From positions 1 to 12,753 of the forward strand of contig JAQTOL010000042.1 in NCBI GenBank assembly GCA_028748945.1: a DNA stretch of 12,753 nt. Direction: 5' to 3'. The DNA is from Paludibacter sp. Lineage in GTDB: Bacteria > Bacteroidota > Bacteroidia > Bacteroidales > Paludibacteraceae. Below, one piece after another: positions 9,062 to 12,753 of the stretch. Positions within the stretch are counted from its first letter, which is position 1. Each line of letters begins with the position of its first letter. Position numbers and translations under genes: made by a program. Below the pieces are notes generated by a model that saw nothing but the letters and a program-made list of their open reading frames with translations, was not told where the DNA came from and made no database searches.

Positions 9062-9400
9062 TTAATACCAAGGATTAAAAAAACACACAAGGTTCAAAAT
9101 AACAAATAAGATATCAGTAATGATTAATATTATAGGCAATAATTTAGATTTATAGTGTTTTGTTTGATATAAATAAACAGAGTATGCATAAAAAATTGCA
9201 AAGACAATCGATGACAATGTAAACAATCTGAAAACTTGTATGTTCGGATAAATAGAGAATAGATATTCCCCAACATAAACATTCTCATATGTATCAGTAA
9301 AAACAATTGAATTATACAACTCATACCCTTTAATACAGATGTAAAATAATACAATTATTATTCGTAAAAAATTATATAACTGAATAACTATATTTTTCAT
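9062..9400 (-). CDS. Small three-helix membrane protein, candidate immunity protein for the RHS toxin
   Basis: A 112-residue hydrophobic protein with three predicted membrane helices, about 6-23, 56-77 and 87-108. The loop between helices 2 and 3 is basic (KHYKSK), which by the positive-inside rule points to the cytoplasm; the 30-residue loop between helices 1 and 2 is acidic (E27, D36, E39, E45) and should face the periplasm. It starts 12 bases after the RHS stop on the same strand, the usual place of an immunity gene for a polymorphic toxin, and is as AT-rich as the toxin tip. A toxin cutting or modifying peptidoglycan would need immunity in the periplasm, which fits this topology. I recognise no named family; the immunity role is inferred from position and topology. 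An unrelated orphan membrane protein remains possible. Confidence 0.7.
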   Translation of the reverse strand: MKNIVIQLYNFLRIIIVLFYICIKGYELYNSIVFTDTYENVYVGEYLFSIYPNIQVFRLFTLSSIVFAIFYAYSVYLYQTKHYKSKLLPIILIITDILFVILNLVCFFNPWY

Positions 9401-9412
9401 TTCTCTTGAACT

Positions 9413-10018
9413 TTAGTAAATAACATCTAAATAAATTGCTCTTTTCATTGCTGATTGAGACAATTTTTTGAAAAACTTAGGAGCATTTTTGTATAAATCA
9501 ATACAACCTCTACTGCCTGGTTGAATTCCACCATGTACTGACATGTTAGTTCTAATAACTTTTTTACCAGTTTTAGGATCAATAACACTAACTGACTGGG
9601 GATATATCCATACACGCTCTTCCCCCCAAGAATCAGTTCCACCTGGAAATGCACTTCCACCAATATTAGAAATATATTTATCAAAAGTGCTCATTTCATT
9701 ATACTTCTGGATGCCTTGAGAATATATCGCATAAGTTCCTTCTGGAATAGGTCCTCCTTTTGTTGCTTGAGCTTCTTTTGAATAAGAGAATGTCCCATCT
9801 TCACTTGGTTTCCCGGAAACAGCATCAAATGAGCTCATTTTAAGAACAAGTTCTCCATCTTTATTCTTTTCTTGCTGAAAATATGATAGTTGTTTACCAT
9901 TAAACAGTATGTACTCTTCACCAATATTTGTCCACTTATTATTATTATCATCGGTATATTCATATTCTTGACTCTTCCTCCACATTTTATTTCCTTTTTC
10001 ATCTGCATACCAGTCTTT
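9413..10018 (-). other. C-terminal toxin domain of the RHS protein, DUF2778/Tlde1-like (L,D-transpeptidase fold)
   Basis: The 201 residues after the core motif DTDG. The order of motifs is that of DUF2778: an LFNGKQLSYF strand pair (near 949), a FDAVSGKP motif (near 975), GGPIPEGTYAI (about 999-1009), an SWGEERVWIYP strand (about 1041-1051), then MSVHGGIQPGSRGCIDL (about 1070-1086). In that last motif His1073 and Cys1083 correspond to the catalytic His and Cys of L,D-transpeptidase-type enzymes. DUF2778 includes Tlde1, a T6SS effector of Salmonella with L,D-carboxypeptidase and L,D-transpeptidase exchange activity on peptidoglycan stem peptides. Activity here is inferred from the motifs; the key residues are all present. 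Confidence 0.82.
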
Positions 10019-12753
10019 GCCATCTGTATCTATATTATTCACAGGATTATTCCCACACCAAGCATAAGGCGAAATATCATAATAATTCTCACTATGAGGG
10101 TCTTGTGTTGGCGTACGTACAATAGCCGGATAATAAGAACGTGCAAAAGAATCATACTCATCCCACCCATGCATTTCTATCCACTCTTTTCCATTATACT
10201 TGTAGGGTTGTGCGCTGTTGCCTGAGCTTTCGGCCCAGGGTAACCCGCTGGGGTAATACTGGGTTTTCTGTACGGTGGTATTGGTGGTGGCACACCATAC
10301 CTCGCGGTTATTGCCCAGATGGTCTTTACGGTAATAATAATACTGAGGATTACTTGGTGTGGTAAGATATCCCTCGGTAGTATACATCCTGACAAACGAA
10401 TAAAATTCAGGATAGATTCCGTTTACAGGTGTGTTTACTTTGTTTATGGCGTATTCCTTATTATCCACATATACCGTACCGGTATAGGTATAGTTTGTGG
10501 GCGTATATACGATATTATTTATATCACCTGCCGATATCGATAACGGAATAGTTGTTTTCAATGAATAGGTATAATAGTCGCTCCGTAACTTCTGCCCGCC
10601 GGCATTGTAGGTATTCACTATTTTATCGCCCGTACGGAATTGAATCACATCCGGCAAATTTAGTATATTATATTGAATTGTCACTATATCACGGTCAATA
10701 TCTTTGGTCAGATTGCCATTTGCGTCGTAAGCCATTTCATTGGTAGCACCATATACGTGATTTTTATCTTGATATTCTTTAGTTGCATTCGAATTTTGAG
10801 ATCCTGCATAATCAAATATTGAGGTTATTTGATTACCGTTGTAGGAAAATGAAAGATAATCCACTGTGGTGCTACTGTTGCCTCGCATAAGGTAAGTTAT
10901 GTTACCCAGGTTATCGTAATTATACTCCTCCCTGTGCCCTGCCGACACGCCCTGCGATGAATTGAATTTATAACAATACGCGGTGTTTAGCCGGTTCAAC
11001 TCATTGTAACTGTACGTGTATGCATAATTAAAAAAAGGTTTGAGAGCTGCTACATTTACACCGGATATCTGGTAAGATATATTGCCGTTGTAGCAGGGCG
11101 TGCCCGTGGCTCCAGCCGGTAAGGAGTTGTAATAGATTTGCTCCAGATAAGTTCCACTGTTAATTTGAGTTGTCCAATTACGGATATTGTAGGCATAGGA
11201 TTCCAAATCAGTTCCTCCTGTATGACGTTTTCTACTTACCAAACGTCCCAATTCATCATAACCATTTGTATTATCTGAAAGGGTAACCGGAGTAACAGCT
11301 CCGTTCAGATAATAATTAGTAACTAATGGTCTCAACGCTTTGTCGTAAGTAAAAGTATACAGTTCGCTTAGAGGGTTTTGTCCGCTGATGGTATGAGTTT
11401 TTAATGTTTTAGTCTGTTTGCCACTAAAATTATAAGCATTATTTACTATATCAGCACCCCCCAGATAATTAGTTGCACGGTTTTGAACTACCAATCCACG
11501 GTAATCGTAATACATAGCAGAAACGGTACTACTCCCGGAACCGTCCAGCAAATAAGTACGTGTTCCGGTAAGGAGTCCTTTGGCATTTAATTCTGAGGCT
11601 GATGTTGCTGTAGTTGGATATGCCTTATCATAACTGTTATCAACGACATAATTCAAACTACTTGATAATCCGGTTAGAAAACTGTAATTATCGTAATAAT
11701 TGATGGTAAGTGGCAAACAAGTACCAAAATTGTTGGCAGTATAATTATTAACCACTAGTTGATCTTTAAATAAATCGCGAATTGTTTGATAATTGGCAGT
11801 TGTATCACTTTCGGACCTATACATTGTACCTGTAAATATTACTCTTCCAAACATATCGTACTTGGTGGCTGTCCATTGCATAGCATTTTCCTGCAATTTT
11901 TTTTGTTGATTACCATCCTGACTAAGCACCAATCTATCTGCCTGATCATATACCATGAAAATTGGTGTGCAACCGGGTAAACGCTTGTATATGCAGTTAC
12001 CACGCTTATCGTATTGATAGAGGTAACAGAGTTTTTTCAAAATTGGTGTAGTAAGATCGGTTATTTCGCCATCGATTGTCAGTGCTGTGGCAGCAATAGG
12101 CGGAATAACAAAACTGAGTTGTCCAAGGTCGTTGTACACATAGTACGTATCCACATCGTTGCTACTCCTTTTCATTATTACCTGCCCCAGTTTATCTTTG
12201 TATTCGGTGGTGGTTTTACGGTCTTCGTCAGCCAATACGGTTTTATAAAGAGTATTGGCATCATAATAACTATTCCTAACCAATTTGTTGCTGCTGTTAA
12301 CATAGAAGTAGGCTACTTCATTTGCAATGTTTGTTTGATATAAAATGCTATCATTCCATTTACCTGCATACCAAGCTGCACCTGCCCCATATTGACCGGT
12401 AACACGGTTTAACGGCGAAGCCTCATACCGTGTTTGATTATAAGCTTTGCTATCTGAATAAAAACCAGACGAGGTATTTGTCAAATTACCGATTTCTACA
12501 GATGCACCCTGATTATCTGCAACAGGGATTGATAACCACTGTTTATCTGTACGACCTAGCCCATCATATTGTGTAAAGGAAATAAGATCACTCTTATTCT
12601 GTGTGATATTCCGTTGTACAAACTCTGTTGAACGCCCGAGCCCATCGAAATACTGGATGGTTTGTAGGCTTTGGTCGGTAGTGAGTGTACTTGCATCAGT
12701 TGATGCAATGGTGGGTGTAACAGTGAGTATGTAATTTTCTCCGGTACTTGGAT
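9413..12753 (-). CDS. RHS-repeat polymorphic toxin with DUF2778/Tlde1-like C-terminal domain; 5' end outside window
   Basis: A large RHS/YD-repeat protein, of which 1112 residues are visible; the frame is open to base 12753, so the start lies outside. Residue numbers here count from the edge. The first ~90 residues look like DUF6443 (ENYILTVTP at 5-13, YFDGLGR at 34-40, YDGLGR at 62-67). The body has many YD-type units, such as YVYNDLGQL, YQYDKRGNC, YDQADRLVL, YDMFGRVIF, YDELGRLVS and YNYDNLGNI, expected to form the RHS shell. The core ends with YRKDHLGNNREVW, YPSGLPWAES, YNGKEW and ISPYAWCGNNPVNNIDTDG. The final 201 residues (from 912) are a distinct toxin domain. No T9SS-type C-terminal sorting domain follows; export could be through T6SS or another route, with no secretion gene in view. 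A TTG at 12484 could be misread as a start, but the same frame continues upstream into recognisable domain sequence. No frameshift is seen. Confidence 0.93.
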   Translation of the reverse strand, partial: PSTGENYILTVTPTIASTDASTLTTDQSLQTIQYFDGLGRSTEFVQRNITQNKSDLISFTQYDGLGRTDKQWLSIPVADNQGASVEIGNLTNTSSGFYSDSKAYNQTRYEASPLNRVTGQYGAGAAWYAGKWNDSILYQTNIANEVAYFYVNSSNKLVRNSYYDANTLYKTVLADEDRKTTTEYKDKLGQVIMKRSSNDVDTYYVYNDLGQLSFVIPPIAATALTIDGEITDLTTPILKKLCYLYQYDKRGNCIYKRLPGCTPIFMVYDQADRLVLSQDGNQQKKLQENAMQWTATKYDMFGRVIFTGTMYRSESDTTANYQTIRDLFKDQLVVNNYTANNFGTCLPLTINYYDNYSFLTGLSSSLNYVVDNSYDKAYPTTATSASELNAKGLLTGTRTYLLDGSGSSTVSAMYYDYRGLVVQNRATNYLGGADIVNNAYNFSGKQTKTLKTHTISGQNPLSELYTFTYDKALRPLVTNYYLNGAVTPVTLSDNTNGYDELGRLVSRKRHTGGTDLESYAYNIRNWTTQINSGTYLEQIYYNSLPAGATGTPCYNGNISYQISGVNVAALKPFFNYAYTYSYNELNRLNTAYCYKFNSSQGVSAGHREEYNYDNLGNITYLMRGNSSTTVDYLSFSYNGNQITSIFDYAGSQNSNATKEYQDKNHVYGATNEMAYDANGNLTKDIDRDIVTIQYNILNLPDVIQFRTGDKIVNTYNAGGQKLRSDYYTYSLKTTIPLSISAGDINNIVYTPTNYTYTGTVYVDNKEYAINKVNTPVNGIYPEFYSFVRMYTTEGYLTTPSNPQYYYYRKDHLGNNREVWCATTNTTVQKTQYYPSGLPWAESSGNSAQPYKYNGKEWIEMHGWDEYDSFARSYYPAIVRTPTQDPHSENYYDISPYAWCGNNPVNNIDTDGKDWYADEKGNKMWRKSQEYEYTDDNNNKWTNIGEEYILFNGKQLSYFQQEKNKDGELVLKMSSFDAVSGKPSEDGTFSYSKEAQATKGGPIPEGTYAIYSQGIQKYNEMSTFDKYISNIGGSAFPGGTDSWGEERVWIYPQSVSVIDPKTGKKVIRTNMSVHGGIQPGSRGCIDLYKNAPKFFKKLSQSAMKRAIYLDVIY

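Follow-up and report, generated by a model that had tools for sequence, protein, structure and literature searches.

What does the C-terminal end of a Bacteroidota RHS protein attack, how would it get there, and what keeps its producer safe? These questions are raised by a 12,753-nucleotide stretch of Paludibacter sp. DNA (assembly GCA_028748945.1, contig JAQTOL010000042.1), here called the window, which makes up the whole of contig C42 in a draft genome of 3.46 Mb (540 contigs, 85% complete) and carries an RHS protein gene and, directly downstream, a gene for a small membrane protein (Table 1). We consider it probable that the RHS protein is a Sec-exported polymorphic toxin with a Tlde1-type, peptidoglycan-damaging tip, from which the producer is protected by the 112-residue membrane protein. 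After export by Sec, the RHS shell would enclose and later release the C-terminal tip, and the released tip, a predicted Cys enzyme of the L,D-transpeptidase fold (His1073/Cys1083), would act in the periplasm of a neighbouring cell. There it would damage the peptide stems of peptidoglycan, most likely by the L,D-carboxypeptidase or exchange chemistry known from Tlde1, and the periplasmic loop or loops of the membrane protein would block the enzyme in the producer.

Table 1 Features of the RHS locus in the window.
Feature	Positions	Strand	Remarks
RHS protein gene	9413..12751	-	Open frame, 1112 codons + stop; 5' end cut by contig edge
DUF6443 (residues 11-131), N-terminal domain of the RHS shell	12359..12721	-	Pfam PF20041, E 1.5e-29, 103.4 bits
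RHS core (residues 832-911), end of the conserved shell	10019..10258	-	TIGR03696 Rhs_assc_core
Variable tip, 201 aa, Tlde1/DUF2778 fold	9413..10018	-	201 codons + stop, 3' end of the RHS frame
Stretch matched by Tlde1_dom (tip residues 80-190)	9449..9781	-	Pfam; 9449-9784 in a second profile search
His1073 (tip H162), predicted catalytic	9533..9535	-	Alignment column of the Tlde1a His
Cys1083 (tip C172), predicted nucleophile	9503..9505	-	Alignment column of the Tlde1a Cys
112-aa membrane protein, probable immunity protein	9062..9400	-	Start codon 12 bp after the RHS stop; 3 hydrophobic segments

The tip and its predicted active site

An initial annotation, made from the letters of the window alone, had read positions 9413-10018 as the 201-residue tail of an RHS protein carrying a Tlde1/DUF2778-type peptidoglycan toxin. 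These coordinates are correct, on the minus strand, and the RHS label agrees with the Rhs_assc_core match (TIGR03696, 39 bits; cut-off 32.5). The two motifs quoted for the tail, GPIPEGTY and VHGGIQPGSRGCIDL, are both present, with a spacing of three residues, not four, between HGG and GSRGC. The proposed profile relationship was also found, at a score under the curated threshold: Pfam Tlde1_dom (PF10908) matched the protein with E 1.5e-5 (25.8 bits, cut-off 30.1). Searching the own genome gave a single copy (E 1.9e-5), and 3 of 14 control genomes gave a match at E<=1 and none of the 14 at E<=0.001, so that the resemblance of the tip to Tlde1 exceeds chance.

The tip is 40, 34 and 38% identical to the tips of three other genomes of the same phylum, and the profile of this tip family matched Tlde1a of Salmonella Typhimurium with E 3.9e-9, the only sequence-profile match in the PDB below E 0.1. 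The predicted fold of the tip is likewise closest to Tlde1a (PDB 7UMA, 7UO3, 7UO8), in line with the L,D-transpeptidase fold that had been anticipated. A match of the tip alone to PDB 2wua was rejected as chance (E 0.13). His1073 and Cys1083, the pair described as intact, stand in the columns aligned with the His and Cys of Tlde1a, and the distance between the two is ten residues in both proteins, within HGG-x3-GSRGC in the window tip and HDS-x4-SHGC in Tlde1a. The predicted catalytic His is invariant (8/8 in one alignment, 4/4 in a second, same-phylum comparison); the predicted nucleophile is kept in 4/4 of the same-phylum comparison and 7/8 of the other alignment, L016 having no Cys.

Relatives such as L016, together with the tip of L053, broken by a frame change, and the open frame of G274, which begins inside the Tlde1 domain, would fit a tip that has decayed or lost its activity. 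In the window, all 1112 codons of the frame are open, the His/Cys pair and the conserved motifs are in place and the neighbour gene is open too, which makes such decay very improbable here.

An exchangeable tip and its other carriers

Matches to the first 500 residues of the window protein were found in 12 of 60 genomes (the own genome included). Eight relative regions were taken and seven counted, one (L049, from G078) being dropped because its RHS gene is divided between two frames and contains masked stretches. The seven RHS proteins with a DUF6443 shell, which come from six genomes within the genus or order of the window, share the shell (46-54% identity) and the core with the window protein and differ from it in the tip in all seven cases: the tip alone gave no match at E<=1e-3 in any of them. 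With the whole protein as query, homology ended at residue 911, 911, 911, 912 and 917 in five relatives and extended to 965 and 974 in two proteins of G032; these ends were taken from the whole-protein comparison, as a shell-only query itself stopped at residue 911. The view of the tail as an exchangeable tip behind an RHS core thus holds, the shell being common to all seven relatives and the tail to none. One of two shell relatives scanned with Pfam ends in an Ntox10-like stretch (below that family's cut-off), and the own genome's further RHS genes (C18, C36) carry different ends.

The tip is rare: among 100 relatives drawn, the own genome alone had the Tlde1 domain (0/99 others). A scan of genome contigs with the window-tip pattern gave 21 pattern matches and no relative, and scans of viral sequences gave no tip relative. 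By tblastn, seven plasmid and two phage-collection records were found, of which six entered profile A1, the other three being further Ensifer records. A Pfam search of 395 genomes of the phylum matched two, a lower bound because it missed the own-genome copy found otherwise; one of these two (L010) was dropped for its four internal stops. Profile A1 found 4/395 in the phylum draw, two of which (own, G176) were already in the alignment, and 3/395 in the class, namely the own genome and two weak part-matches (L024, 24.0 bits; L025, 20.3 bits). One of the two part-matches sits within a 2458-residue open frame. The families of G176 (2/92 genomes) and G291 (1/14) yielded only matches already known and no further genome.

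The combination of RHS and Tlde1 is not unique to the window: eight other loci hold it or its broken remains. The window protein represents a further case of a known kind of weapon, not a new principle. The expected Bacteroidota host is shared at phylum level with two of them, G291 (Bacteroidetes) and G274 (Balneola). Among six further RHS-type frames, five have an RHS core above the cut-off (G176, G291, L054 of Belliella, L064 of Thermoanaerobaculia, L090 of Ignavibacteria) and the Calditrichales frame L058 scored 28.4, below it. Tlde1_dom was matched in four of the six, always below cut-off (21.3, 22.9, 24.7 and 29.5 bits); L058 and L090 had no match at E<=0.01 and were assigned by tblastn to the window. 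In L053, L054, L064, L090, G176 and G291 the order is that of the window: an RHS core, a tip of the same kind and then a small membrane-protein gene. Only the L090 frame (1859 residues) is as long as that of the window, the other five having 297-570 residues (326-570 in G176, G291, L054 and L064). The short frames may be displaced RHS ends, and G274 and L053 are broken RHS-Tlde1 remnants lying beside other RHS ends.

A second Ignavibacteria stretch, L090:8165-9679, aligns with the window RHS protein through the tip, and L090 may thus hold two RHS-Tlde1 genes in tandem. The regions L022 (in G291) and L023 (in G274) contain arrays of several RHS ends with differing tips, often with a small gene next to them, which are perhaps stores of displaced tips.

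Other carriers differ in architecture. Tlde1a is a stand-alone effector of the type VI secretion system (T6SS), whereas the window tip is the C-terminal part of an RHS protein with 1112 residues or more. In Phage_Mu_F proteins (L055:117-1247 and L062:6227-7450 above the Phage_Mu_F cut-off, L059 below it) the Tlde1 domain is C-terminal; possibly these are phage-carried toxins. Their hosts are an uncultured proteobacterium and Alphaproteobacteria, and a small membrane-protein gene lies next to each. A protein of a Ciceribacter megaplasmid (L011:2625-4586) has an eCIS_core domain, then Tlde1 (27.8 bits, below cut-off) and then a further region, and the Ensifer protein L014:2844-4586 resembles it by appearance (the Pfam scan covered L011). 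The Phage_Mu_F and eCIS_core carriers differ from RHS, and their delivery is probably different.

The adjoining membrane-protein gene

The 112-residue membrane protein, which the initial annotation did not mention, is the probable immunity partner of the tip. Hydrophobic segments were called by a simple hydropathy window. To place the gene in context, GTDB contigs were scanned with profile A2, which gave 96 pattern-matching stretches and 42 loci encoding a Tlde1 relative (L066 being G274 and L070 being G291). A neighbour was counted when an open reading frame of 60-185 residues with at least two hydrophobic segments started -60 to +100 bases from the Tlde1 stop, and other open reading frames of at least 150 residues in the same loci served as controls, those too near an end being dropped. 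Such a neighbour was present in 36/42 Tlde1 loci compared with 9/315 control frames, and also in G176, outside the 42 loci.

The closest tip, that of a Bacteroidales metagenome-assembled genome (L053, 51% identity), is followed by a 114-residue protein that shares DTY-x2-VYVG with the 112-residue protein. None of 500 class-preserving shuffles reached the score of this pair, the best of ten compared; the other neighbours gave 3/500 (L055), 18 (L087), 21 (L054) and 39-135 (the remaining six). The neighbour proteins of G176 and G274 are 46% identical over 76 residues, and sequence comparison supports a relationship among neighbour proteins for the window-L053 and G176-G274 pairs only. When the window/L053 profile was compared with 20 groups, the best values were E 0.004-0.007 with probabilities of 6-9% (L065, L054, L056/57), the best of 20 reversed controls reaching E 0.024, which is only a hint of distant kinship. 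A MARVEL match of the 112-residue protein was rejected as chance (E 0.056, below cut-off).

The frequency of membrane-protein neighbours and the likeness to L053 together are typical of a toxin paired with a membrane immunity protein, an arrangement that suits a toxin acting in the periplasm. They also bear on the idea that the domain is a self-directed cell-wall enzyme, serving remodelling or maturation and no weapon, as would be natural for the L,D-transpeptidase fold, whose members are mostly housekeeping enzymes. We regard this as quite unlikely for a domain that forms the variable end of an RHS shell, where relatives of the shell have other ends, that went undetected in the other 99 genomes of the draw, and that is linked to a small membrane-protein gene as are most Tlde1 genes.

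The immunity candidates encoded downstream in five proteobacterial loci (L076, L080, L082, L084, L087) have almost the same loop, [YF]GxGPPx[YF]GxTxNMDKW, flanked by two hydrophobic segments.

Route of export and weight of the evidence

All six relatives with a complete N-terminus (from five genomes) begin, as judged by eye, with a basic and then a hydrophobic stretch ending near AQ, a signal-like start of the kind seen in Sec signal peptides. The first residues of the window protein align directly after this stretch in G061 and in both proteins of G032, and little beyond a signal peptide may therefore be missing at the contig edge; in G018 and G004 some 270-290 extra residues lie between the stretch and the aligned part. 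TssC (PF17541) was found in 5/119 relatives, none of them in the genus of the window, and not in the own genome (G000). VipB (PF05943) was found neither in the own genome nor in any of the 119 relatives; this family is probably blind to the Bacteroidota form, given the five TssC matches. With signal-like starts in the relatives and no TssC in the own genome, Sec export appears the likelier first step than a T6SS, and it can be proposed for the window protein only by analogy as its own N-terminus is missing. The T6SS analogy drawn in the initial annotation should therefore not be extended to delivery. Its RHS shell, exchangeable tip, Tlde1/DUF2778 fold with the His/Cys pair and Bacteroidota host are supported, and toxicity, the target and an attack on tetrapeptide stems are predictions.

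The same toxin might instead be loaded onto a contractile system, either a Bacteroidota T6SS or an extracellular contractile injection system (eCIS). In favour of this, Tlde1a belongs to the T6SS effectors, the T6SS of other phyla often has RHS proteins as cargo, and the Ciceribacter Tlde1 domain lies behind eCIS_core. We nevertheless find this improbable, given that neither VipB nor TssC was found in the own genome (eCIS genes were not searched there), that none of the five TssC-bearing relatives belongs to the genus, that six shell relatives have signal-like starts, and that the two Pfam-scanned shell relatives gave no PAAR or eCIS_core match.

Several observations weigh against a Sec-exported Tlde1-type toxin with a membrane immunity protein. 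For the tip, the Tlde1_dom score is below the gathering cut-off, just one structure model of the five reached a good score (73.6, the remaining four <=52.9), folding from the single sequence did not succeed (37.6), and the Foldseek match had a root-mean-square deviation of 6.6 Å and a TM of 0.45-0.51; its rarity counts on the same side. For the neighbour, six of the 42 loci lack one (L067, L073, L074, L077, L085, L091), the figure of 42 overstates the independent cases because some loci are close kin, and the scan pattern behind it itself contained GCID. The eCIS-type loci L011 and L014 have no small membrane-protein neighbour, a large frame coming next, and the shuffle test is not very specific, since the unrelated-looking L055 reached 3/500. 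The missing T6SS genes are weak evidence because the own genome is 85% complete. Finally, RHS cores cleave themselves at DPxG, a motif frequent at the end of the core in other members, and the window core terminates in IDTDG; with the Pro replaced by Thr (DTDG), self-cleavage at a site of this type is uncertain. Two relatives read DVKG and DIMG at the core end.

More broadly, and tentatively, Tlde1 might be a general cell-wall warhead, not one peculiar to the T6SS, that moves among RHS shells, phage Mu-F head proteins, eCIS cargo and stand-alone genes. It would mostly be accompanied by a small multi-pass membrane protein that gives immunity by plugging the active site with a periplasmic loop, and in Bacteroidota it would be delivered by a Sec-exported RHS shell without a contractile system; we hold this wider picture to be somewhat less likely than its opposite. 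The locus ties a cell-wall toxin family known from the T6SS to Bacteroidota RHS shells, with a candidate immunity partner. Should the rule of an adjoining membrane protein hold, a predictable antidote would lie beside most Tlde1 genes, and the study of RHS action in bacteria without a T6SS would gain a candidate whose target is periplasmic and whose effect is easy to read out.

Two full-length RHS relatives have upstream of them a further large gene, coding for about 1050 residues (L044:6845-10000, L046:231-3362), with an RHS_repeat match in L046 and none in L044, which is perhaps a shell partner; the window contig ends before that place. Elsewhere in the own genome, L008:6658-7839 shows a weak match to a type IX secretion sorting domain (Por_Secre_tail, 18.6 bits, cut-off 27).
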